A model generated the notes under the pieces. That model saw only the letters and a list, made by a program, of their open reading frames with translations. It was not told the origin of the DNA and did not search any database. Shown in pieces: positions 15,443-59,202 of a stretch of DNA of 64,000 nt; the stretch's first letter is position 1, and each line of letters begins with the position of its first letter. A program made the translations under genes and the position numbers. Source of the stretch: Clostridia bacterium (GTDB taxonomy: Bacteria; Bacillota; Clostridia; Oscillospirales; Acutalibacteraceae); assembly GCA_017428625.1 (NCBI GenBank), contig JAFRQM010000011.1, positions 1-64,000 on the forward strand. Direction: 5' to 3'.

Positions 15443-15672
15443 CAAATAAAATAACTCCGCCCATACAGGACGGAGTTAATAATCCGTTAACCACCTGATA
15501 TGCATACATGATTTTATGCTTCCCCGCTAACGGTGGGACTCCGTCAAAGCCTACTTGTGAACTTTCGGTTTGAAACTCGGGAGTGATGTTCGTTCATTGC
15601 AGTAAATACCGGCATCTCACCGTCGCCGGCTCTCTTTGATTTACTCAGCAAAGACTACTGTCTCCGTCAATG
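15443..15672 (-). promoter_or_regulatory. T-box leader (isoleucine) controlling ileS
   Basis: Read on the minus strand, the leader has the expected order: stem I with AGTA and AGAGAGCCGG...GGTGAGATGCCGG, then the specifier loop GAAC-ATC-ACTCCCGAG with the Ile codon ATC at 15585-15587. The GTAGGCTTTGACGGAGTCCC stretch and CACCGTTA follow. The T-box sequence AGGTGGTTAACGG lies at 15484-15496 and overlaps the start of a terminator, AACTCCGTCC paired with GGGCGGAGTT (15453-15477), with a following T tract. Uncharged tRNA-Ile would stabilise the antiterminator and allow ileS transcription. The specifier agrees with the downstream gene. Confidence 0.93.
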
Positions 15673-15699
15673 TTTTTAAGGTGTTTTTAATTTCGATAA

Positions 15700-42387: not shown

Positions 42388-42572
42388 AAAAATCGCCCCG
42401 CCAAGCCGATGCGGTGCCTGTAACCTGCTCTCTTGCAGGTGGGTGCCTCCCGGTGATTTCGCGCTCCCTTCGTCCGTTAAACGGGAGGTCTGCAGTCCGG
42501 CACCGGAGTCCGGCTCCCTATTATTACGTGTTGGGTTACATTGTTTCCGCATTTCTCGCACAAGGCAGGGTT
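42388..42572 (-). ncRNA. ssrS: 6S RNA (SsrS)
   Basis: On the minus strand a 185-base segment has 6S features. Its ends pair as CCCTGCC with GGCGGGG, and ATGCGG with CCGCAT, giving a long closing stem. GCAGGTTACAGGCACCGCA near the 3' side resembles the conserved GGTTACAG...GCGGC part of 6S RNA. CCGGTG/CACCGG and CTCCC/GGGAG form an upper arm, and an A/T-rich open region lies between. The 3' end is followed by ATTTTT. 6S RNA binds RNA polymerase holoenzyme and mimics an open promoter. It lies 18 bases behind DUF1292 on the same strand. Confidence 0.75.
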
Positions 42573-42590
42573 TTTATTGAATTGATAATT

Positions 42591-47016: not shown

Positions 47017-47508
47017 ATGAAAAAAATAGCGGTAATTATGGGCAGTGACAGCGACATGCCCGTTGTTCAAAAAGCTATTGATGTTCTTGACGAATACGGA
47101 GTTCCTTACGAAGTTCATGTTTATTCCGCTCACAGAACGCCGGAACAATCAAGAGAGTTTTCTTTAAACGCGCGTCAAAATGGTTTTGGCGCAATAATTG
47201 CAGCGGCAGGTAAGGCTGCACATTTGGCAGGTGCTCTTGCAGCAAATACAACTCTTCCTGTTATCGGCATTCCGGTCAAGTCATCAACGCTTGACGGTCT
47301 TGACGCTCTTCTTTCAACTGTTCAGATGCCGTCCGGCATTCCTGTTGCAACAGTCACGATAGACGGGGCTGCAAACGCTGCGCTGCTCGCGATTCAGATT
47401 TTATCTGTCAGCGATGCTGAACTTGCTGCAAGGCTTGACCGTTCAAGAGTTTCCGCATCAATGAAAGTTCTTGAAAAAGATAAAGCTATTTCCGAAAAGT
47501 TTTCCTGA
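47017..47508 (+). CDS. purE: N5-carboxyaminoimidazole ribonucleotide mutase
   Basis: A 163-residue enzyme of IMP synthesis that forms CAIR. VIMGSDSDMPVVQKAI, VYSAHRTPEQSREF, AAAGKAAHLAGALAANT and GIPVATVTIDGAANAALLA are the class I or II PurE signatures. The start ATG 47017 follows AGAGGTG by 7 bases; an in-frame GTG at 47008 lies within that site. It is the first gene of the purine operon and is followed by a leader peptide gene and terminator. No purK is present nearby, so a class II PurE that uses CO2 directly is possible. Confidence 0.95.
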   Translation: MKKIAVIMGSDSDMPVVQKAIDVLDEYGVPYEVHVYSAHRTPEQSREFSLNARQNGFGAIIAAAGKAAHLAGALAANTTLPVIGIPVKSSTLDGLDALLSTVQMPSGIPVATVTIDGAANAALLAIQILSVSDAELAARLDRSRVSASMKVLEKDKAISEKFS

Positions 47509-47531
47509 AATACATTTGTGAGGTGGTTATA

Positions 47532-47633
47532 ATGAGCAGATTTGTTTCTGATGTTTTAATTCTTTGTAACAGTGCGCTCATTTGCGCCTCCACGCACAAA
47601 AGTGTCAATTATCAGGCTGGTTATTCTGCTTAA
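47532..47633 (+). CDS. 33-residue leader peptide between purE and purF-like gene
   Basis: A short frame MSRFVSDVLILCNSALICAS, then THKSVNYQAGYSA and stop. Its GTGAGGTGG ribosome site, 5 bases before ATG, is strong. Its TAA stop (47631-47633) lies in the apical loop of a terminator hairpin. No run of a single amino acid codon is present, so classical starvation-type attenuation is not obvious. The position argues that translation affects the terminator. No homologue is known to me. Confidence 0.5.
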   Translation: MSRFVSDVLILCNSALICASTHKSVNYQAGYSA

Positions 47634-47661
47634 AAGCAGATGTAATCAGCCTTTTACTTTA
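47614..47661 (+). terminator. Attenuator-like terminator inside the purine operon
   Basis: AGGCTGGTTA (47614-47623) pairs with TAATCAGCCT (47643-47652, one G-U pair), and TCTGC (47625-47629) with GCAGA (47636-47640), loop TTAAAA. A T-rich tract (TTTTACTTTATTT) follows. It separates purE from the remaining purine genes. The stop codon of the leader peptide is within the loop. Confidence 0.75.
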
Positions 47662-47680
47662 TTTACCGGAGGTTTTTATT

Positions 47681-49105
47681 ATGGGCGGATTTTTCGGTGC
47701 CGTTTCAAACAAAGATGTTATTCTTGATGTTTTTTTTGGCACAGACTACCATTCACATCTCGGCACGCTTCGCGGAGGAATTGCAGCTTTGACCGAAAAT
47801 GGATTTGACAGGCATATTCACAACATTGAAAACACGCCTTTCAGAACCAAGTTTGAAAGCGACATTGCTGATATCAGCGGTAAAGCATGCATCGGTTGCA
47901 TAAGTGACACAGACCCTCAGCCGATTCTCATTTATTCACATCTCGGAACTTATGCCATCAGCATTATCGGCATAATTAATAATCTGACAGAACTGACGGA
48001 TGAGATTATTCACAATTCGTCAAGTCATTTCGGAGGAATGAGCGGCGGCAGAATCAACACATCCGAACTTACGGCTGCCCTTATTAATTCAAAAAAAGAT
48101 TTTGTTGAAGGAATTAAATACGCTCACGAAAAAATCGACGGTTCCGTTTCTATTCTTATTCTTACTGACAAACACGAGATAATTGCCGCGAGGGATAAAT
48201 TCGGCAGATTACCGATTCTGATAGGTAAAGATAATGACGGTTTCTGTGTTTCTTTTGAATCCTTCGCTTATGAAAAACTGGGATATAAAGACGACTATGA
48301 GCTTTCGTGTGGTGAAATTGTCAGAATCACTGCTGATAAATACGAAACTTTATATAAACCTGAAAAGACTAAAAAACGTGTATGTGCGTTCCTTTGGACT
48401 TATTACGGATACCCAAATTCACATTATGAAGGTGTTAATGTTGAGGTTATGCGCTACCGCAACGGCGAAATAATTGCAAAAACCGACAGGCAAAACGGAG
48501 TAGCGCAGGATATTGACTATGTTTGCGGTGTGCCGGATTCAGGCCTTCCCCACGCCATAGGCTACGCGAATGAAAGCCATATCCCGTTCGCGAGGCCGTT
48601 TGTCAAATATACACCCACCTGGCCGAGAAGCTTTATGCCCACAAACCAGAATGTCCGCAACCAGGTTGCTAAAATGAAACTTATTCCAGTCACCGAACTC
48701 ATAAACGGCAAAAAACTCCTTTTTGTTGATGACAGTATTGTAAGAGGAACACAACTGAGAGAAACTGTTGAGTTCCTCTATGACAACGGAGCGAAAGAGG
48801 TTCATATGCGTTCCGCTTGCCCGCCGATTATGTTCGGCTGCAAATATCTCAATTTTTCTGCTTCCACATCCGCCCTTGAACTTATCGCAAGAAGAACAAT
48901 AATCGAACTGGAAGGGCAGGAGGGTGAAAAATATATTGACGAATATATCAACCCCGAAACACTACGCGGAAAAAAACTGCGCGATACAATAGCAGAAAAA
49001 CTTAAACTTGATTCGCTTGAATATCAGACTCTTGACGGTCTGATTGAAGCCATAGGGCTTGATGAAGATGAAATATGCACTTACTGCTGGAACGGGAGGG
49101 AGTAA
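47681..49105 (+). CDS. PurF-like amidophosphoribosyltransferase lacking the glutaminase cysteine
   Basis: A 474-residue PurF homologue. The N terminus reads MGGFFGAVSNKD, so the catalytic Cys after Met, needed for glutamine hydrolysis, is replaced by Gly. The C-terminal phosphoribosyltransferase half keeps the PRPP loop LLFVDDSIVRGTQ and PDSGLPHAIGYA. Cysteines at 235 (RVCAFLW), 387 (FGCKYL), 466 and 469 (CTYC) correspond to the [4Fe-4S] ligands of Bacillus PurF. The protein might use free ammonia or another amidotransferase, or be regulatory. ATG 47681 has CCGGAGG 9 bases ahead; a 33-codon extension that includes the leader terminator is rejected. No second purF is in this window. Confidence 0.85.
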   Translation: MGGFFGAVSNKDVILDVFFGTDYHSHLGTLRGGIAALTENGFDRHIHNIENTPFRTKFESDIADISGKACIGCISDTDPQPILIYSHLGTYAISIIGIINNLTELTDEIIHNSSSHFGGMSGGRINTSELTAALINSKKDFVEGIKYAHEKIDGSVSILILTDKHEIIAARDKFGRLPILIGKDNDGFCVSFESFAYEKLGYKDDYELSCGEIVRITADKYETLYKPEKTKKRVCAFLWTYYGYPNSHYEGVNVEVMRYRNGEIIAKTDRQNGVAQDIDYVCGVPDSGLPHAIGYANESHIPFARPFVKYTPTWPRSFMPTNQNVRNQVAKMKLIPVTELINGKKLLFVDDSIVRGTQLRETVEFLYDNGAKEVHMRSACPPIMFGCKYLNFSASTSALELIARRTIIELEGQEGEKYIDEYINPETLRGKKLRDTIAEKLKLDSLEYQTLDGLIEAIGLDEDEICTYCWNGRE

Positions 49106-49108
49106 AAA

Positions 49109-50152
49109 ATGAATACAAATTCAAAATCTGACAGTTACGCTGCGGCCGGTGTTGACATTACAGCCGGTTACAAGGCGGTTGAACTTATGAAAAAACATAT
49201 TGCCCGCACAATCTCCGGCGGCGCGCTATCTGACATCGGCGGTTTCGGCGGATTGTTTGAACTTGACATTGAAAATATAAAGAAGCCTGTTCTTGTCAGC
49301 GGAACTGACGGTGTCGGCACTAAACTCAAACTTGCTTTTCTAATGGATAAACATGATACCGTTGGTATTGATTGCGTCGCCATGTGTGTCAATGACATAA
49401 TCTGCTGCGGTGCAAAACCGATGTTTTTCCTCGATTATATTGCCTGCGGCAAGAATTACCCTGAAAAAATCGCTTCAATAGTTTCTGGTGTGTGTGAGGG
49501 CTGCGTTCAGTCCGGCTGCTCACTGATAGGTGGAGAAACTGCAGAAATGCCGGGGTTTTACCCTGTTGACGAATATGACCTTGCCGGTTTCTCAGTAGGT
49601 GTTGTTGATAAAGAAAAAATCATTAATAACAAATCAATGATTCCGGGTGATATATTAATTGCTTTGCCTTCAAGCGGCATTCACTCAAACGGTTTTTCAC
49701 TTGTAAGAAAAGTATTTGATGTTGAAAATAAAGACATCAAATCTCCTGTTGATTCTCTTGGCGGAAAATCAATAGGCGAAACTCTTCTTACTCCTACAAA
49801 AATTTATGTAAAACCTGTTCTGGCTTTGCTTGAGACAATTACTGTAAAGGGCATTTCGCATATTACAGGCGGCGGATTTTATGAGAATATTCCGAGAAGC
49901 ATACCCGACGGTCTCGGAGCTGTTATCAATAAAGAATCAATCAGAATTCTTCCCATTTTTGACCTCATTTCAAAAATCGGCAATATTATCGAACACGATA
50001 TGTTCAACACATTCAATATGGGTGTCGGGATGAGCATTGTTGTTGCAAAAGAGGATGCACACAACGCTGTTGATATTCTCAAAGCAAACGGAGAAGACGC
50101 TTACATCATCGGCGAAATTGTTTCATCCGACGAAAAAATCAGAATAGTCTGA
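49109..50152 (+). CDS. purM: Phosphoribosylformylglycinamidine cyclo-ligase (AIR synthetase)
   Basis: A 347-residue enzyme that closes the imidazole ring to form [60 protein letters not shown] and [11 protein letters not shown] are characteristic. [13 protein letters not shown] is in the ATP-binding C-terminal domain. The length is standard. Three bases separate it from purF-like, so translation is tightly coupled. Confidence 0.96.
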
Positions 50153-50164
50153 CAGGTGGCATGT

Positions 50165-50779
50165 ATGGCAAAAGCAAGAATAGCCGTTATGGTATCGGGC
50201 GGCGGAACAAACCTCCAGGCTTTGATTGACGCACAGATTTCGGGAATAATCAAAAGCGGTGAAATTGTGCTTGTGATTTCAAACAGCCACACGGCATTCG
50301 CTCTGGAAAGAGCAAAAAACGCAGGCATAAAAACATTCAGCATTACAAAAAAAGAATGCGGTTCACAGCAATCTTTTGAAAAAGCGCTTATAGATGAACT
50401 TGAAAAAGAAAATATCGACCTTATTATTCTTGCAGGTTTTTTAAGTATTCTCAACAAGAGCTTTACAGACAGATTCGCAAAAAGAATCATCAATATTCAT
50501 CCTTCGCTTATTCCATCATTCTGCGGCGAGGGATATTACGGACTTAAAGTTCATGAGGCAGCACTTCATAAAGGCGTCAAGGTTACGGGAGCTACCGTGC
50601 ATTATGTAAACGAAATACCCGACGGCGGAGAAATCATTTTGCAGAAGGCTGTTTACATACGCAAAAACGACACTCCCGAAACATTACAGCGCAGGGTAAT
50701 GGAGCAGGCGGAATGGAAAATTCTTCCTGCGGCTGCCGAAATCTGTTCAAGAAAAATTATTGAAAACAAGGAGATATAA
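50165..50779 (+). CDS. purN: Phosphoribosylglycinamide formyltransferase
   Basis: A 204-residue folate-dependent GAR transformylase. MVSGGGTNLQALIDA binds the phosphate, INIHPSLIP holds the catalytic Asn and His, and VHYVNEIPDGGEIILQKAV contains the catalytic Asp. The start is ATG 50165, with AGGTGG at 50154-50159; a GTG at 50156 within that site would add three codons. It follows purM with only a dozen bases between. Confidence 0.95.
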   Translation: MAKARIAVMVSGGGTNLQALIDAQISGIIKSGEIVLVISNSHTAFALERAKNAGIKTFSITKKECGSQQSFEKALIDELEKENIDLIILAGFLSILNKSFTDRFAKRIINIHPSLIPSFCGEGYYGLKVHEAALHKGVKVTGATVHYVNEIPDGGEIILQKAVYIRKNDTPETLQRRVMEQAEWKILPAAAEICSRKIIENKEI

Positions 50780-50781
50780 TT

Positions 50782-51501
50782 ATGGGAATCTATGACATCA
50801 ACATTATTTCAGATCTTCTGAGCCAAAACACATATCCGGGCAGGGGAATAGTAATCGGCAAAACCTCCGATGGTAATAAAGCTGTTTTTGCATATTTCAT
50901 TATGGGCAGAAGCGAAAATAGCCGCAACAGAGTTTTTACCGTTAAAGACAACGCTGTTTTCACAGAACCTTTTGACGCTTCAAAAGTTGAAGACCCCAGC
51001 CTTATCATTTACGCCGCCGTTCGCAAAACCGACAACAGCATAATTGTAACAAACGGCAACCAGACTGACACAATTTTTGATTTCATAAAAGAAGGCAAAT
51101 CTTTTGAACAAGCACTTGAAACAAGATGTTTTGAACCCGACTCTCCCAACTGGACTCCGAGAATCAGCGGTCTTCTTGATTTTACAGGCAACGATTTTAC
51201 TTATAAAATGAGTATTCTCAAGAGCGCAGACGCTGAAGGCTCGGCATGCAACAGATTCACTTATAATTATACCCCAATAAACGGTTTAGGTCATTTTATT
51301 CACACATACAACTGTGACGGCAATCCGATTCCCACTTTTTCAAATGAACCCGAAAGAGTTGCTGTTACGGATGACATTGACGAATACACAAATGAAATCT
51401 GGAATTCTCTTAATGAAGCCAACAAGATTTCACTTTATGTAAGTTATATTGACATTGCAACGGGTGCTGCTGAAAACAGAATGATCAACAAGAATAAATA
51501 A
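50782..51501 (+). CDS. IMP cyclohydrolase, archaeal PurO type
   Basis: A 239-residue protein that matches the PurO fold rather than the cyclohydrolase half of PurH. YPGRGIVIGKTSDGNKAVFAYFIMGRS, NSRNRVF, then RISGLLDF and TYNCDGNPIPTF are the diagnostic parts. It closes FAICAR to IMP, the last step of the pathway. The next gene encodes the matching transformylase as a separate chain, so this pair replaces the usual bifunctional PurH. It starts 2 bases after purN. Confidence 0.88.
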   Translation: MGIYDINIISDLLSQNTYPGRGIVIGKTSDGNKAVFAYFIMGRSENSRNRVFTVKDNAVFTEPFDASKVEDPSLIIYAAVRKTDNSIIVTNGNQTDTIFDFIKEGKSFEQALETRCFEPDSPNWTPRISGLLDFTGNDFTYKMSILKSADAEGSACNRFTYNYTPINGLGHFIHTYNCDGNPIPTFSNEPERVAVTDDIDEYTNEIWNSLNEANKISLYVSYIDIATGAAENRMINKNK

Positions 51502-51514
51502 AGGAGACAGAGCG

Positions 51515-52699
51515 ATGAAAGAATTTGAACTCAAATACGGCTGTAATCCAAATCAGAAGCCTTCAAAGATTTATATGAAAAACGGCGGCGACCTTCCCAT
51601 TGAGATTTTAAGCGGAAGGCCGGGATATATCAATTTTCTCGACGCATTCAATTCATGGCAGCTTGTTAAGGAACTCAAAGAAGCTCTCGGACTTCCCGCC
51701 GTAACTTCTTTCAAGCATGTAAGCCCCACATCAGCCGCTGTAGGGGTAAAACTTTCAGACACACTCAAAAAAGCCTGTTTCGTGGATGACATTGAAGGGC
51801 TTGACGATTCTCCTCTTGCCTGCGCTTACGCCAGAGCGAGAGGTACCGACAGAATGTGCTCGTTCGGCGACTGGGTTGCCCTTTCGGATATTTGCGATGT
51901 TACAACGGCTCTTCTTATCAAGCGTGAGGTATCCGACGGAATTATAGCCCCGGGTTATGAGCCCGAAGCGCTTGAGATTCTTAAAACAAAACGCAACGGC
52001 AATTATAATATTGTTAAAATCGACCCCGATTATGTTCCCGAGGAGCAGGAAACAAAGCAGGTTTTCGGCATTACATTCGAGCAGGGGAGAAACAATTTCA
52101 AAATCAACAGGGAATTGCTTTCAAATGTAGTTACCGCGAACAAAGAACTCCCCGAAAGCGCTGTCAGAGACTTGATTATTTCGCTTATCACTCTTAAATA
52201 CACGCAGTCCAATTCCGTCTGCTACGCGGTTGACGGTCAGGCAATAGGTGTGGGCGCGGGCCAGCAGTCAAGAATTCACTGCACAAGGCTTGCCGGCACC
52301 AAGGCCGACACCTGGTTTTTACGCCAGCACGAAAAGGTTCTGAATCTTCCGTTCCGTGATGACATCAAACGCCCCGACAGAGACAATGTTATTGACGGTT
52401 ACATCAATAAAAATGAAGAGGATGTTTGCGCTGACGGTATCTGGCAAAAATATTTCAATGTTCAGCCCTCTCCTCTCACCGATGAAGAGGCAAAGGCGTT
52501 CCTTGCCACCCGTGACGGAGTAGCTCTCGGCAGCGACGCGTTCTTCCCGTTCAGCGACAATATAGAACGCGCACATAAGAGCGGTGTCAAATACATAGCC
52601 GAGCCCGGCGGCTCAATCAGGGATGACGCCGTTATTGAGTGCTGTGACAAATACGGCATTGCGATGGCATTTACCGGTATGAGACTTTTCCACCATTGA
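51515..52699 (+). CDS. AICAR transformylase (PurH C-terminal domain as a free-standing enzyme)
   Basis: A 394-residue protein homologous only to the AICAR formyltransferase part of PurH. It starts ELKYGCNPNQKPSKIY, as that domain does, and has SFKHVSPTSAAVG with the catalytic Lys-His pair. KYTQSNSVCYAVDGQAIGVGAGQQSR and EPGGSIRDDAVIECCDKYG follow near the end. It uses 10-formyl-THF to make FAICAR. The IMP cyclohydrolase domain is absent and is supplied by the preceding PurO gene. Confidence 0.92.
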   Translation: MKEFELKYGCNPNQKPSKIYMKNGGDLPIEILSGRPGYINFLDAFNSWQLVKELKEALGLPAVTSFKHVSPTSAAVGVKLSDTLKKACFVDDIEGLDDSPLACAYARARGTDRMCSFGDWVALSDICDVTTALLIKREVSDGIIAPGYEPEALEILKTKRNGNYNIVKIDPDYVPEEQETKQVFGITFEQGRNNFKINRELLSNVVTANKELPESAVRDLIISLITLKYTQSNSVCYAVDGQAIGVGAGQQSRIHCTRLAGTKADTWFLRQHEKVLNLPFRDDIKRPDRDNVIDGYINKNEEDVCADGIWQKYFNVQPSPLTDEEAKAFLATRDGVALGSDAFFPFSDNIERAHKSGVKYIAEPGGSIRDDAVIECCDKYGIAMAFTGMRLFHH

Positions 52700-52716
52700 T
52701 TTTCGGGAGTATTGAT

Positions 52717-53988
52717 ATGAATATTATTGTTGTAGGCGGCGGAGGCAGAGAACACGCCATTATAAAATCACTTAAAAAGAATAAAACAATCAACAAAATT
52801 TACGCTTTGCCCGGCAACGGCGGAATGGCGGATGACGCCGAATGTGTTGACATAGGCGCGAAAGATATTGACGCAATAGTTGATTTCGCCGTTAAAAACA
52901 ATATTGATTTTGCGGTTGTGGCACCGGATGATCCTCTTGTTCTCGGCGCGGTTGACGCACTTACTGCAAAGGGGATACCCTGCTTTGGCCCCGATAAAAG
53001 AGCGGCAATTATTGAAGGCAGCAAGGTCTTTTCAAAAAATCTTATGAAGAAATACTCCATTCCCACAGCGGAATATGAGGTTTTTTCGGATATAGAAAAA
53101 GCTCTTGATTATGTTAAAACCGCTCCGGTTCCCGTTGTTATAAAAGCTGACGGTCTCGCGCTGGGCAAAGGGGTTCTTATCTGCAACACAAGGGATGAAG
53201 CTGAAAAAGCGGTTAAAACCATTATGGAAGATAAAATCTTCGGCGAAAGCGGCAACAGTGTTGTTATTGAGGAATTTCTGACAGGACCGGAGGTTTCGGT
53301 TCTCTCATTTACCGACGGAAAAACCGTTGTACCGATGATTTCATCAATGGATCATAAACGCGCGCGTGACAATGACGAAGGCTTAAACACCGGCGGTATG
53401 GGCACGGTAGCGCCCAATCCGCACTACACACCGGAAATTGCCCGCAGGTGTATGGATGAAATTTTCATTCCCACAGTAAAGGCGATGAACAGCGAGGGCA
53501 GAACATTCAAAGGCTGCCTGTATTTCGGGCTTATGCTAACACCCAAGGGCCCGAAAGTCATTGAATACAACTGCCGTTTCGGTGACCCGGAAACTCAGGT
53601 TGTTCTGCCGCTCCTCAAAACCGATTTGTTTGAGATTATGAAGGCTGTCTCCGAAGAAAGGCTTTCCGATATTTCCGTTGAGTTCAGCGATAAATCCGCC
53701 TGCTGTGTTATTATGGCGTCTGACGGATACCCCGAAAAATATGAAAAAGGCTTTGAAATCAAAGTAAACGGCGAGCTTGACGGCGATATGTTCATTGCGG
53801 GCGCTAAAATGAGTGACGGCAAACTGCTTACAAACGGAGGCAGGGTTCTCGGCGTTACCGCTGTTGCCGATGACCTGAAATCGGCGGTTGACAAGGCGTA
53901 CCGTGAAATTGAAAAGGTCAGTTTTGAAAATGCTTATTACCGTAAAGATATTGGCAAAAGGGCGCTTGAAGCCGTAAAGGAGGCATAG
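52717..53988 (+). CDS. purD: Phosphoribosylamine--glycine ligase
   Basis: A 423-residue ATP-grasp enzyme, second step of purine synthesis. NIIVVGGGGREHAI is at the N terminus, GPDKRAAIIEGSKVFSKN and PVVIKADGLALGKGV in the ATP-grasp domain. MDHKRARDNDEGLNTGGMG and EYNCRFGDPETQVVLP complete the pattern. ATG 52717 is preceded by CGGGAG; a 7-codon upstream extension overlaps the AICAR transformylase and lacks a ribosome site. The gene lies between the AICAR transformylase and purL. Confidence 0.96.
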   Translation: MNIIVVGGGGREHAIIKSLKKNKTINKIYALPGNGGMADDAECVDIGAKDIDAIVDFAVKNNIDFAVVAPDDPLVLGAVDALTAKGIPCFGPDKRAAIIEGSKVFSKNLMKKYSIPTAEYEVFSDIEKALDYVKTAPVPVVIKADGLALGKGVLICNTRDEAEKAVKTIMEDKIFGESGNSVVIEEFLTGPEVSVLSFTDGKTVVPMISSMDHKRARDNDEGLNTGGMGTVAPNPHYTPEIARRCMDEIFIPTVKAMNSEGRTFKGCLYFGLMLTPKGPKVIEYNCRFGDPETQVVLPLLKTDLFEIMKAVSEERLSDISVEFSDKSACCVIMASDGYPEKYEKGFEIKVNGELDGDMFIAGAKMSDGKLLTNGGRVLGVTAVADDLKSAVDKAYREIEKVSFENAYYRKDIGKRALEAVKEA

Positions 53989-53989
53989 T

Positions 53990-56900
53990 ATGGTTTACAG
54001 AGTTTATGTTGAAAAAAAGCCGGGCCTTGATAATGAGGCAAGGGCTCTGAAAAACGATATCAACGCTTTTCTTCAGATTGACTCGCTTGAAAAAGTGCGT
54101 GTAATCAATCGCTATGATGTTGAAAACATAACAAAAGAGCTTTTTGATTACTCCATAAAAACGGTTTTTTCGGAACCTCAGCTTGACAACGCGACTTCAA
54201 CCATTGATTATGATAAAGACGCTTCTGTTTTCGCGGTTGAGTATCTGCCCGGTCAGTTTGACCAGAGAGCGGATTCCGCCTCGCAGTGCATTCAGATTAT
54301 TTCACAGGGTGAAAGGCCTCTTGTAAAGACCGCGAAGGTTTATATTCTTTACGGAAATCTCGAGGCCGAACAGCTCGCCTCAATAAAAAAATATGTTATA
54401 AATCCCGTTGAGAGCAGAGAAGCTTCTCTTGCCGAGTTTGAAACGCTTAAAACAGATTATGATATTCCCGTAAGCGTTGACACACTTGACGGTTTTTGCA
54501 GCCTTGACGAAAACGGACTTAAGAATTTTATGGCAAAATACGGGCTCGCGATGGATCTCGGCGACATAACCTTCTGCCGTGATTATTTCAGAAAAGAACA
54601 GCGAGACCCTACGATTACGGAAATCCGTATGATTGACACATATTGGTCCGACCATTGCCGCCACACAACATTTTTAACCATTATTGACAATGTTGAGTTT
54701 GAAGATGAAACTCTTCAGCAGGCTTACAACGAATATCTTGAAGCCAGAAAAGAAATCGGCAGAACAAAGCCGATTAACCTAATGGATATAGGCACAATTG
54801 CCGCAAAGGTACTCAAAAAACGCAGTATGCTTGACAAGCTTGATGAATCGGATGAAATCAACGCTTGCACCGTTAAAATCAAGGTTGATATTGACGGAAA
54901 AACAGAAGACTGGCTTCTTCTTTTCAAAAATGAAACTCATAATCATCCTACTGAAATTGAGCCTTTCGGCGGCGCGGCAACCTGTATCGGCGGCGCAATA
55001 CGCGACCCGCTCTCCGGGCGCTCCTATGTTTATGCCGCAATGAGAGTTACAGGCGCGGCAGACCCGCTTAAACCCGTTAACGAGACTATACCCGGCAAAC
55101 TTCCGCAACGAAAACTGGTTACAACAGCAGCGGCAGGCTACAGCTCATACGGCAACCAGATAGGCCTCGCGACGGGTCAGGTTGATGAACTGTATCACGA
55201 CGGCTATGTCGCGAAACGAATGGAAATCGGCGCGGTTATTGCCGCCGCTCCCGAAGAGAATGTCAGACGGGAATGCCCCGTTGACGGTGATGTTGTAATT
55301 CTTCTCGGCGGCAGAACGGGCAGAGACGGTTGCGGAGGCGCTACCGGGTCCTCCAAGTCGCACACACTTGAATCACTTGAAACCTGCGGCGCGGAGGTTC
55401 AGAAGGGCAACGCTCCCGAAGAAAGAAAACTGCAGAGACTTTTCAGAAACAAAGAGGCGTCTTTACTCATTAAACGCTGCAACGATTTCGGCGCGGGCGG
55501 CGTTTCTGTTGCGATAGGCGAGCTCGCTGACGGCCTTGAAATTGACCTTAATGCTGTTCCGCGCAAATATGACGGCCTTGACGGAACGGAACTCGCAATA
55601 AGCGAATCGCAGGAAAGAATGGCTGTTGTTGTCGCTCCTGAAGACGCCGAAAGATTTATAGAACTCGCTTTTGCCGAAAACCTTGAAGCTACTCAGGTGG
55701 CTGTTGTTAAGAGTGAGCCGAGACTTCGTATGAAATGGAACGGCAAATATATTGTTGATATTTCCAGAGATTTTTTAAACACCAACGGCGCTGATAAGCA
55801 TATTACAATAAAGCCTGCAAAACCGCAGGATTTTTCAAAAAAGATAAGCGGCGGATTTGAAGAAGAATACCTCAAACTCGCGGGTGACCTCAATGTTTGC
55901 TCAAAACGCGGACTCTCGGAGAGATTTGACTCAACAATCGGCGCGGGCACTGTTATAATGCCCTTCGGCGGAAAAAACCAGATTACTCCGTCGCAGGCAA
56001 TGGTTAACAAGATTTCTTCTGAAAAAAGCAACGCACAGACTGTTTCTTTTATGAGCTGGGGCTTCAACCCGTTTATCTCAGAAAAAAGCCCTTATCACTC
56101 CGCGTATTTAGCCGTTACAGAGTCAATTTGCAAACTTATTGCTTCCGGCGCGCAGTTCAAAGATGTTTACCTTACCTTCCAGGAATATTTTGAAAAACCT
56201 ATGCAGTCGCCCGAACGCTGGGGCAAACCGTTATCTGCTTTGCTCGGCGCGTTTAAAGCTCAGATGCAGTTCGGAGTTGCGGCAATCGGCGGTAAGGATT
56301 CCATGAGCGGCACATTTGAAAACATTGATGTTCCGCCCACGCTTGTTTCTTTTGCCGTTACAACAGGTGACAATAAAGATGTTATTTCTCCCGAATTCAA
56401 AGGGGAGGGTCACAAGGTTATCTGGCTTAAACCCGATTACGACAAAAACGGTCTTCCCGTTGCCGAAAGCGTCAAATCAATATTTGCAAAAGTAACCGCT
56501 CTTATGAGGCAGGGCAAGGTTCTTGCCGCTTGCACACCCGGCTTCGGCGGCGCGGCTGAAGCGGTAATGAAGGCCTGCTTCGGCAATTCTTTGGGATTTG
56601 AATTTGACAGCGCGATAACTTTAAAAGAAATCTTCGGTTATTCATACGGTTCATTTATTCTTGAACTTAACTGCGATGAAAACGACGGTATTCTTTTAGG
56701 CCGCACAAAGGCTGAAAAAACATTAAGCTTAAACGGTGCTTCCGTAGAGCTTGACAGGCTTCTTGAAGTTTATGAAAACAAGCTTGAAAGTGTTTATGCC
56801 TGCAACATAAAGCAGAGTGATAAAGAAATACCCGCTTTTGAGTATAAAGCGGAACAAAGAAAAGCGCCGGCAATCAAAACCGCGAAGCCTAAAGTTCTTA

Positions 56901-57682
56901 TTCCCGTTTTTCCCGGCACAAACTGCGAATATGACACAGCTAAAGCGTTTTCGGCGGCAGGGGCGGAGCCCGAAATAATTGTAATTAACAATCTGACCGC
57001 GACCGGTATTTCGGATTCTGTTAAGTATTTTGCCGAAAAAATAAAACAGGCAAACATCATTTTTATTCCCGGCGGATTTTCGGGCGGTGATGAGCCGGAC
57101 GGCTCGGGTAAATTCATAACCGCTTTCTTCCGCAATTCCTCAATAAAAGACGGCGTTCACGAACTGCTCAATAACCGTGACGGCCTTATGGGCGGCATTT
57201 GCAACGGCTTCCAGGCGCTTATTAAATTAGGTCTTGTTCCTTACGGTGAAATTACAGATACAGATGAAAACTGCCCGACGCTTACCTTTAACACAATCGG
57301 CAGGCATCAGTCAAGAATTGTGAGAACAAGAATTGCCTCAAACAAATCACCGTGGCTTATGAATACTCAGCCCGGCGATATTTACAGCGTTCCCATTTCT
57401 CACGGCGAAGGCAAATTCCTCGCCTCTGATGAGCTTATTTTAAAACTTGCTCAGAACGGCCAGATAGCGACACAGTATGTTGACCTTGACGGCAGACCCA
57501 CATCGGATGTCAGGTTTAATCCGAATGATTCCCGTTTCGCGATTGAGGGCATTACATCACCCGACGGCAGGGTGTTCGGCAAAATGGGGCATTCGGAACG
57601 TTATACAGACGGCCTGTATATGAATGTTCAGGGCAATTACAATATCGGAATTTTTGATTCAGCAGTAAAATACTTTAAATAA
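53990..57682 (+). CDS. purL: Phosphoribosylformylglycinamidine synthase, single-chain with glutaminase
   Basis: A 1230-residue long-type PurL. The N-terminal part (PurS-like) is followed by TYWSDHCRHTTFL and NETHNHPTEIEPFGGAATCIGG, the first ATP site. The second PurM-like repeat contains GVAAIGGKDSMSGT. A class I glutamine amidotransferase domain begins near 965 (PKVLIPVFPGTNCEYDTA), with the nucleophile Cys1071 in GGICNGFQAL. This is the proteobacterial or eukaryotic layout and some Clostridia share it, whereas Bacillus splits it into PurS, PurQ and PurL. Glutamine use is thus intact here, unlike in the purF-like protein. Confidence 0.95.
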   Translation: MVYRVYVEKKPGLDNEARALKNDINAFLQIDSLEKVRVINRYDVENITKELFDYSIKTVFSEPQLDNATSTIDYDKDASVFAVEYLPGQFDQRADSASQCIQIISQGERPLVKTAKVYILYGNLEAEQLASIKKYVINPVESREASLAEFETLKTDYDIPVSVDTLDGFCSLDENGLKNFMAKYGLAMDLGDITFCRDYFRKEQRDPTITEIRMIDTYWSDHCRHTTFLTIIDNVEFEDETLQQAYNEYLEARKEIGRTKPINLMDIGTIAAKVLKKRSMLDKLDESDEINACTVKIKVDIDGKTEDWLLLFKNETHNHPTEIEPFGGAATCIGGAIRDPLSGRSYVYAAMRVTGAADPLKPVNETIPGKLPQRKLVTTAAAGYSSYGNQIGLATGQVDELYHDGYVAKRMEIGAVIAAAPEENVRRECPVDGDVVILLGGRTGRDGCGGATGSSKSHTLESLETCGAEVQKGNAPEERKLQRLFRNKEASLLIKRCNDFGAGGVSVAIGELADGLEIDLNAVPRKYDGLDGTELAISESQERMAVVVAPEDAERFIELAFAENLEATQVAVVKSEPRLRMKWNGKYIVDISRDFLNTNGADKHITIKPAKPQDFSKKISGGFEEEYLKLAGDLNVCSKRGLSERFDSTIGAGTVIMPFGGKNQITPSQAMVNKISSEKSNAQTVSFMSWGFNPFISEKSPYHSAYLAVTESICKLIASGAQFKDVYLTFQEYFEKPMQSPERWGKPLSALLGAFKAQMQFGVAAIGGKDSMSGTFENIDVPPTLVSFAVTTGDNKDVISPEFKGEGHKVIWLKPDYDKNGLPVAESVKSIFAKVTALMRQGKVLAACTPGFGGAAEAVMKACFGNSLGFEFDSAITLKEIFGYSYGSFILELNCDENDGILLGRTKAEKTLSLNGASVELDRLLEVYENKLESVYACNIKQSDKEIPAFEYKAEQRKAPAIKTAKPKVLIPVFPGTNCEYDTAKAFSAAGAEPEIIVINNLTATGISDSVKYFAEKIKQANIIFIPGGFSGGDEPDGSGKFITAFFRNSSIKDGVHELLNNRDGLMGGICNGFQALIKLGLVPYGEITDTDENCPTLTFNTIGRHQSRIVRTRIASNKSPWLMNTQPGDIYSVPISHGEGKFLASDELILKLAQNGQIATQYVDLDGRPTSDVRFNPNDSRFAIEGITSPDGRVFGKMGHSERYTDGLYMNVQGNYNIGIFDSAVKYFK

Positions 57683-57696
57683 GGAGAGGATGAAAA

Positions 57697-59202
57697 ATGG
57701 CTATTTATTTTGAAGAACCTTCAAGAACTTTCAGCGAGTATCTTCTTATTCCCGGTTACACATCGGAAGAGAATATCCCCGCTAATGTTTCTCTGAGAAC
57801 ACCTCTTGTAAAATACCGCAAAGGCAAGGAAGAACCGGCAATCAGTCTTAACATTCCGATGGTTTCTTCCATAATGCAGTCCGTTTCAAACGACACTATG
57901 GCTATAGCTCTCGCCCGTGAAGGCGGAATGTCATTCATTTACGGTTCTCAGTCTATAGAAGACGAGGCTGATATGGTAGCGAGGGTAAAGGCATACAAAT
58001 CAGGTTTTGTAGTCAGCGACAGCAACCTTAACGCGGAGTCAACGCTTGCCGATGTTCTTAACCTTTTTGAGGAAAAAGGTCATAACACTATGGCCGTTAC
58101 CGAAGACGGCACAGCGAACGGCAAACTGATAGGCATTGTTACAAGCCGCGATTACCGGGTGAGCCGTATGCCTCTTGACCTCAAGGTAACAGAGTTTATG
58201 ACTCCGCTGGAGAAACTTATCTGCGCTTCTGAAAATACCACTCTTAAAGAGGCTAACGATATTATCTGGGAGCATAAACTCAACTCTCTGCCCATTGTTG
58301 ACAAAAACGGCAATCTTATGTATCTCGTTTTCCGCAAGGATTATTCGCAGCATAAAGAAAACCCGCAGGAGCTTCTTGACGCGAATAAAAGCTATATGGT
58401 CGGCGCCGGCATAAACTCAATCGACTATGAGAAAAGAGTTCCCGCTCTTGTTGAAGCGGGCGCGGATGTTCTTTGCATAGACTCATCCGAAGGTTATTCC
58501 TGCTGGCAGAAAAAGACTATTGATTTTATCAGAAGCAAATACGGTGACTCGGTAAAGGTCGGCGCGGGCAATGTTGTTGACCGTGACGGTTTTATGTTCC
58601 TTGCCGAAGCGGGCGCGGATTTTGTTAAGGTTGGTATCGGCGGCGGCTCAATCTGCATAACACGCGAAACAAAAGGTATAGGCAGAGGTCAGGCTACCGC
58701 TGTTATTGAGGTTGCGGCGGCAAGAGACGAGTATTTTGAAAAAACTGGAATATATGTTCCCATTTGCTCAGACGGCGGAATAGTTCACGACTACCATATG
58801 ACTCTCGCTCTCGCTATGGGTGCTGATTTTCTGATGCTCGGCAGATACTTTGCAAGGTTTGACGAAAGCCCCACACCCAAAATAAACATTAACGGCACTT
58901 ATGTTAAAGAATATTGGGGTGAAGGCTCGAACAGAGCGCGCAACTGGCAGAGATATGATCTCGGCGGTAAATCCAAGCTTTCGTTTGAAGAGGGTGTTGA
59001 TTCCTATGTTACATACGCGGGCCCCCTTCATGACAATGTTCTTAAAAGCCTTTATAAAGTAAAATCAACTATGTGCAACTGCGGTGTTCTCAATATACCG
59101 GAGCTGCAAAAAAATGCCAAGCTCACCCTTGTTTCCTCAACAAGTATTATCGAGGGCGGCTATCACGATGTTACACTCAAAACAACCGCAAATCAGGGTT
59201 AA
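57697..59202 (+). CDS. guaB: IMP dehydrogenase, variant [10 protein letters not shown] type
   Basis: A 501-residue enzyme that oxidises IMP to [16 protein letters not shown] is the start of the barrel; a CBS pair (about 95-220) is inserted; the loop with the catalytic Cys320 is [20 protein letters not shown]. The flap carries the Arg419-Tyr420 dyad ([18 protein letters not shown]), and KSTMCNCGV lies near the end. These motifs and the numbering closely resemble, from memory, the IMPDH of the protist Tritrichomonas foetus (Cys319, Arg418/Tyr419) rather than the common bacterial GPGSICTTR type. It ends the purine operon. Confidence 0.94.

Follow-up and report, generated by a model that had tools for sequence, protein, structure and literature searches.

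Why would a purine biosynthesis operon carry, directly after its first gene, a short open reading frame (ORF) whose stop codon lies in the loop of a strong transcription terminator? The question is raised by the window, that is, the whole stretch of 64,000 nucleotides analysed here, from the genome of a Clostridia bacterium (G000). The operon, encoded on the plus strand, opens with purE (AIR carboxylase, 47017..47508; Pfam AIRC, 2.3e-61), continues with the leader ORF and, as the first gene past the terminator, a purF-like amidophosphoribosyltransferase gene (47681..49105), and then includes purM, purN, the genes for IMP cyclohydrolase and AICAR transformylase, purD, purL and guaB (49109..59202), which were identified through Pfam, except for purL, called from its ORF translation. 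Pfam matches the operon PurF weakly (GATase_7 and a sub-cutoff Pribosyltran), and the same genome encodes a second PurF-like protein (G000:C19:24112-25029) that is 37% identical to the product of 47681-49105 over the aligned part. We propose, with a probability of about 0.6, that the block between purE and purF is a translation-gated transcription attenuator that divides the operon, the part past purE probably being made only if a ribosome traverses the leader in time.

The leader ORF consists of 33 codons and a TAA stop (47532..47633, plus strand; MSRFVSDVLILCNSALICASTHKSVNYQAGYSA) and is preceded, at a spacing of 6 nt, by the Shine-Dalgarno (SD) sequence GAGGTG (47520..47525), confirming the frame and strong ribosome site that an earlier note had reported after purE. 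A PurF search across the genus and family, through which the sister copies were located, yielded two close relatives, G055 and G043, with PurF 92% and 84% and purE 87% and 84% identical to those of the window, respectively. In both, the leader occupies the orthologous place, its frame is open, and it is followed by a U-rich tail and purF. The leaders span 33, 35 and 39 codons in the window, G055 and G043, each ending with TAA in a hairpin loop, and the purE stop precedes the leader AUG by 23 nt in the window and by 23-24 nt across the three species. The chance of an open frame given the composition is 0.18, 0.09 and 0.19 in the three species, values that their relatedness makes interdependent. 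The encoded peptide drifts, with 48% (G055) and 25% (G043) identity to the window leader. Between G000 and G055, the leaders differ at codon positions 1, 2 and 3 with frequencies of 0.26, 0.26 and 0.32, compared to 0.08, 0.03 and 0.44 for purF, and the leader codon changes comprise 17 nonsynonymous and 3 synonymous ones. This codon-position divergence rules out a functional conserved peptide. As judged from these comparisons, selection appears to act on the structures, on the frame and on where it starts and stops, and not on the peptide; because the peptide drifts while the frame stays open, it is the act of translation, rather than its product, that seems to matter.

The terminator, hereafter H2, is a 17-bp hairpin on the plus strand (47614..47652; -23 kcal/mol, z -7.1), the stability of which was matched by none of 500 dinucleotide shuffles. 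It runs into a moderate, interrupted U-rich tract (TTTTACTTTATTT, 47652..47664) that ends in TTATTT, a sequence that G055 and G043 also have in their terminator tails. The leader TAA (47631-47633) is in the loop, within 1 nt of the hairpin centre (47633 in the window) in each of the three species, so that the location of the stop in the loop of a strong terminator before the purF-like gene, as stated in the earlier note, held up. Against dinucleotide shuffles, the terminators of the three species score z from -4.7 to -7.1, and the outer stem reads ACAGCCGTT/AACGGCTGT in G043 as against GGCTGGTTAT/GTAATCAGCC, with the letters changed and the pairing intact. Only about 17 nt separate the U-tract from the purF AUG, with its SD GGAGG at 47668-47672, leaving no room for a separate purF promoter. 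For the 5' arm of H2, no stable upstream pairing partner, that is, no antiterminator, common to the three species was predicted, a result that fits direct blocking by the ribosome and speaks against a switch of the trp type. The alternative pairing suggested in the earlier note, between AGCAGA, which actually lies at 47535-47540 rather than at 47534-47539, and TCTGCT (47625-47630), is impossible in both sister species and thus finds no support.

The arrangement is more than a chance occurrence, as judged from 796 kb of sampled stretches from the same and the sister genomes, with 323 ORFs of 12-70 codons starting with an SD and ATG. Few of these have their stop at the centre of a terminator-like hairpin, and the three pur sites surpass the others in strength; in addition, the design recurs at the orthologous place in G055 and G043. 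Two other leader-plus-terminator candidates were rejected, one (L175) because it is the end of a gene read in the wrong frame, the other (L170) because it is antisense to a long ORF; the remaining candidates in the 796 kb are weak matches.

The phylogenetic reach of the element appears to be narrow. The search of related genomes that the earlier note had called for recovered the frame and the hairpin in G055 and G043, whereas none of 174 further regions upstream of purF, taken from the genus and the family as well as from named Oscillospiraceae, Ruminococcus and related genomes, contains the leader design. When the block was searched for at the DNA level in 40 relatives, the only matches outside the window's own genome were short ones to the start of purF, and a contig scan for further close relatives found nothing above 69% PurF identity. 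On present data, therefore, the device seems to be specific to a clade of three closely related species. Rfam yields no match at the leader site; elsewhere in the window, on the minus strand, a 6S RNA (42391-42574) and a T-box leader (15463-15679) score above gathering. Among the other loci, L140 and L109 (in Lawsonibacter/Oscillibacter-type genomes) encode, directly before purF, a small protein predicted to reside in the membrane (MDLSIIGGQDGPTAVLTSGGPAGLILTLLLIAAAAGAAIWLFFRRRKK in L140). Six others (L029, L031, L064, L068, L132 and L138) have strong hairpins between purC and purF, some with short U-rich tails, without a leader ORF; these might be attenuators of a simpler kind or sites of RNA processing.

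How a leader ribosome could act on H2 depends on the relative progress of transcription and translation. In E. coli, the ribosome strongly represses terminators that lie a few nucleotides from a stop codon, and uncoupling abolishes this repression (PMC4824070). A short distance from stop to terminator has been used as a sign that the polymerase outruns the ribosomes, according to a summary (PMC7858274) of Johnson et al. 2020. In the window and the sampled stretches of its genome, terminator-like hairpins begin at a median of 8 nt past the stops of long ORFs, with 64% starting within 12 nt of the stop and 11% overlapping it. Given these overlaps, regulation cannot be diagnosed merely from the location of a stop within a terminator, and because the short distances here suggest runaway transcription, a ribosome would normally arrive too late to open H2. 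The proposal of the earlier note that a ribosome reaching the stop melts the hairpin would thus fail as it stands, given the 8-nt median, but becomes workable when combined with a gate that holds the polymerase back. Two features missed by the earlier note, a hairpin that locks the leader start and a candidate pause motif, would supply such a gate.

The start hairpin, H1 (47520..47590, plus strand), has a predicted energy of about -19 to -22 kcal/mol in the three species. The SD of the leader is also the outer 5' strand of H1: GAGGUG (47520-47525) pairs with CGCCUC (47585-47590), whereas the inner strand AAUGAGC, with the AUG (47531-47537), pairs with GCUCAUU (47576-47582). An equivalent H1 is formed from different letters in G055 and G043, and in the predicted folds, the SD and AUG of all three species are paired with a probability of nearly 1 (about 0.95-1 for the window SD). 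In a comparison set of 183 ordinary gene starts, drawn from the window's own genome and the sister genomes, none is both as stable and as locked, and at only 2 of the 183 are both the SD and the AUG paired with a probability of at least 0.9. Compared to shuffles, H1 scores z from -3.7 to -0.7 and so is not strongly extra-stable in every species; the case for it rests on what the predicted hairpin covers and on its recurrence in three species. When the whole leader of the window is folded, the minimum-energy structure pairs the SD region otherwise; hence, at least one fold competes with H1. The alignment misplaces G043 within H1, where the pairs were counted by hand, and a single clear compensatory pair was found (G-C in the window, A-U in both sisters). 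Taken together, these models indicate that the leader ribosome site and AUG are locked by H1 in the three species.

In each of the three species, the candidate pause motif, TTGTTT (47542..47547, plus strand), starts exactly 10 nt past the A of the leader AUG; a second match, TTCTTT (47560..47565, plus strand), is, of the sisters, kept in G055 only. NusG of the three genomes reads RNTRGVTGF, the N and T of which would correspond to N81 and T82 of B. subtilis NusG. These two residues are said to read the pause motif (PMC12288461), which is TTNTTT in the non-template strand (PMC12288461, PMC8060035), and only a small fraction of TTNTTT motifs causes strong pausing in B. subtilis (PMC12288461). 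Motif and residues together point to a pro-pausing site, but because TTNTTT occurs often here (4.3 per kb per strand) and does not suffice for pausing on its own, this evidence is suggestive. If the usual RNA polymerase footprint of 14 nt is assumed, a polymerase paused at TTGTTT would have the RNA 3' end near 47552 and the RNA up to about 47538 outside, such that the SD and AUG would be exposed while the 3' strand of H1 would still be unmade.

From these parts, their conservation and the predicted folds, we infer a pause, a race and its outcome. The polymerase would pause at TTGTTT soon past the leader AUG, when the SD and AUG have emerged and the complementary strand of H1 has not yet been made. 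A ribosome loading during this interval, whether recruited from solution or arriving from the purE stop, 23 nt before the AUG, would keep H1 open and, having been loaded during the pause, would begin right behind the polymerase and trail it closely. Once over about the last ten leader codons, it would cover the 5' arm of H2, which would stay unfolded while the polymerase enters purF. If the ribosome is late, H1 would lock the leader, H2 would fold and transcription would terminate after purE. Scarcity of ATP and GTP would slow the polymerase, prolong the time available for loading and switch the operon on, closing a negative feedback loop. The choice of polymerase speed, and hence of purine NTP supply, as the signal is a guess. 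The complete speed-measuring version, in which a NusG pause times loading, the start closes behind the polymerase and low purine NTPs cause read-through, is held only tentatively, with the balance tipped against it.

The alternatives differ in what, if anything, the leader is thought to sense. If the leader were simply a gene for a small protein, transcribed together with purE and overlapping the terminator as a normal gene end, this would accord with the 11% of terminators that overlap the stops of long ORFs in this genome, yet the drifting peptide with its excess of nonsynonymous changes, the fact that the conserved peptide stretch I-C-x-S is the H1 strand that pairs with the SD, and the lack of space for a purF promoter make this very unlikely. 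Even less credible is an attenuator of the trp/his type, where an antiterminator arises when the ribosome stalls at special codons. The 2-4 Cys codons of each leader could be taken in its favour, but they fall mostly within H1, there is no run of control codons, the peptides drift, the pathway product is not an amino acid and no antiterminator is predicted; furthermore, the geometry fails, because amino-acid attenuators have the terminator more than 20 nt past the leader stop (PMC4824070), whereas here the stop is inside it.

Two other readings have to be taken more seriously. H2 could be a constitutive partial terminator that lowers the expression of purF and the later genes relative to purE, with leader translation fixing the level of read-through and sensing nothing. 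The combination of a strong H2 with a moderate U-tract would suit this view, as would the failure to recognise any sensory element or Rfam match at the site, but to set a fixed ratio, the locked start and the pause motif that the three species have retained would both be superfluous, and we consider this reading unlikely. It is possible, albeit with the odds against it, that the signal is translation capacity: starvation or ppGpp would cut leader initiation, H1 would close and purine synthesis would be switched off, or else the leader would be fed mainly by ribosomes terminating on purE, so that expression of the operon would hinge on the translation of purE. A close upstream stop and a locked start site are the usual geometry of translational coupling, and both are found here in all three species; the sequence, however, looks alike for this version and for the one with polymerase speed as the signal. 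Returning to the translation-gated attenuator as such, the points counted against it are its restriction to three close species, the usual proximity of terminators to stop codons in this genome, the interrupted U-tract, the high frequency of TTNTTT and the single clear compensatory pair in H1. The conservation of the frame, the stop-in-loop position and the terminator while the peptide drifts supports the translation-coupled attenuator after purE that the earlier note had proposed, in a form that was incomplete without the start gate.

Our search of the literature (open-licence papers) agrees with the earlier note in finding no purine leader-peptide attenuator, so that, within that literature, this would be the first leader-ORF attenuator described for the synthesis of purines, and it would belong to a genus that lacks purine riboswitches. 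The locus provides a concrete case of how a pause motif and a self-closing start hairpin could couple transcription and translation at one spot. If the speed-measuring reading is true, coupling would be programmed locally in a lineage whose polymerase otherwise runs ahead of the ribosomes.

Among the known systems, the purine riboswitch (RF00167) also attenuates purine genes in Bacillota; its covariance model matches neither the window nor any of 45 genus genomes. In E. coli pyrBI, the leader stop lies beyond the terminator hairpin, whereas here it is in the loop. The likeness to pyrBI consists in a terminator located within a translated leader gene, prevention of termination by a ribosome near the polymerase and a role in nucleotide synthesis (PMC4824070); a hairpin within or overlapping the leader ORF, which is presumably translated, is found in all three species. 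The present element differs in serving purine genes, in its position in the middle of an operon rather than in a 5' leader, in its hairpin-locked start and in its Bacillota host, and, in contrast to the UTP-sensing U-rich run of pyrBI, it shows no clear nucleotide-specific run, the leader being U-rich or A-rich depending on the species. The mgtM and mgtP ORFs of Salmonella mgtCBR are similar in that short ORFs sense ATP or charged tRNA via coupling (PMC3641672), and the mgtM peptide is likewise not conserved, but they have no intrinsic terminator with the stop in its loop, follow the opposite ATP logic and are unrelated in sequence and genes. In B. subtilis tlrB (yxjB), a NusG pause gives time for leader translation, and a ribosome near the leader stop interferes with the terminator (PMC6851288). 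The shared features are a leader peptide, a NusG pause motif, a ribosome block at the leader stop and no antiterminator (PMC6851288), pausing and the ribosome block being predicted in our case, where all three species have the motif between the leader start and the terminator together with a NusG of the putative pro-pausing type. In tlrB, a macrolide antibiotic stalls the ribosome at an RYR motif, and neither RYR nor RXR is present in the C termini of the three leaders (QAGYSA, PAGYSA and SRSVCD); moreover, tlrB sequesters the SD of the downstream gene, whereas here the SD of the leader itself is locked. By analogy with these systems, we call the purE-purF element a putative variant of ribosome-controlled attenuation that would combine pyrBI-like topology with tlrB-like timing.
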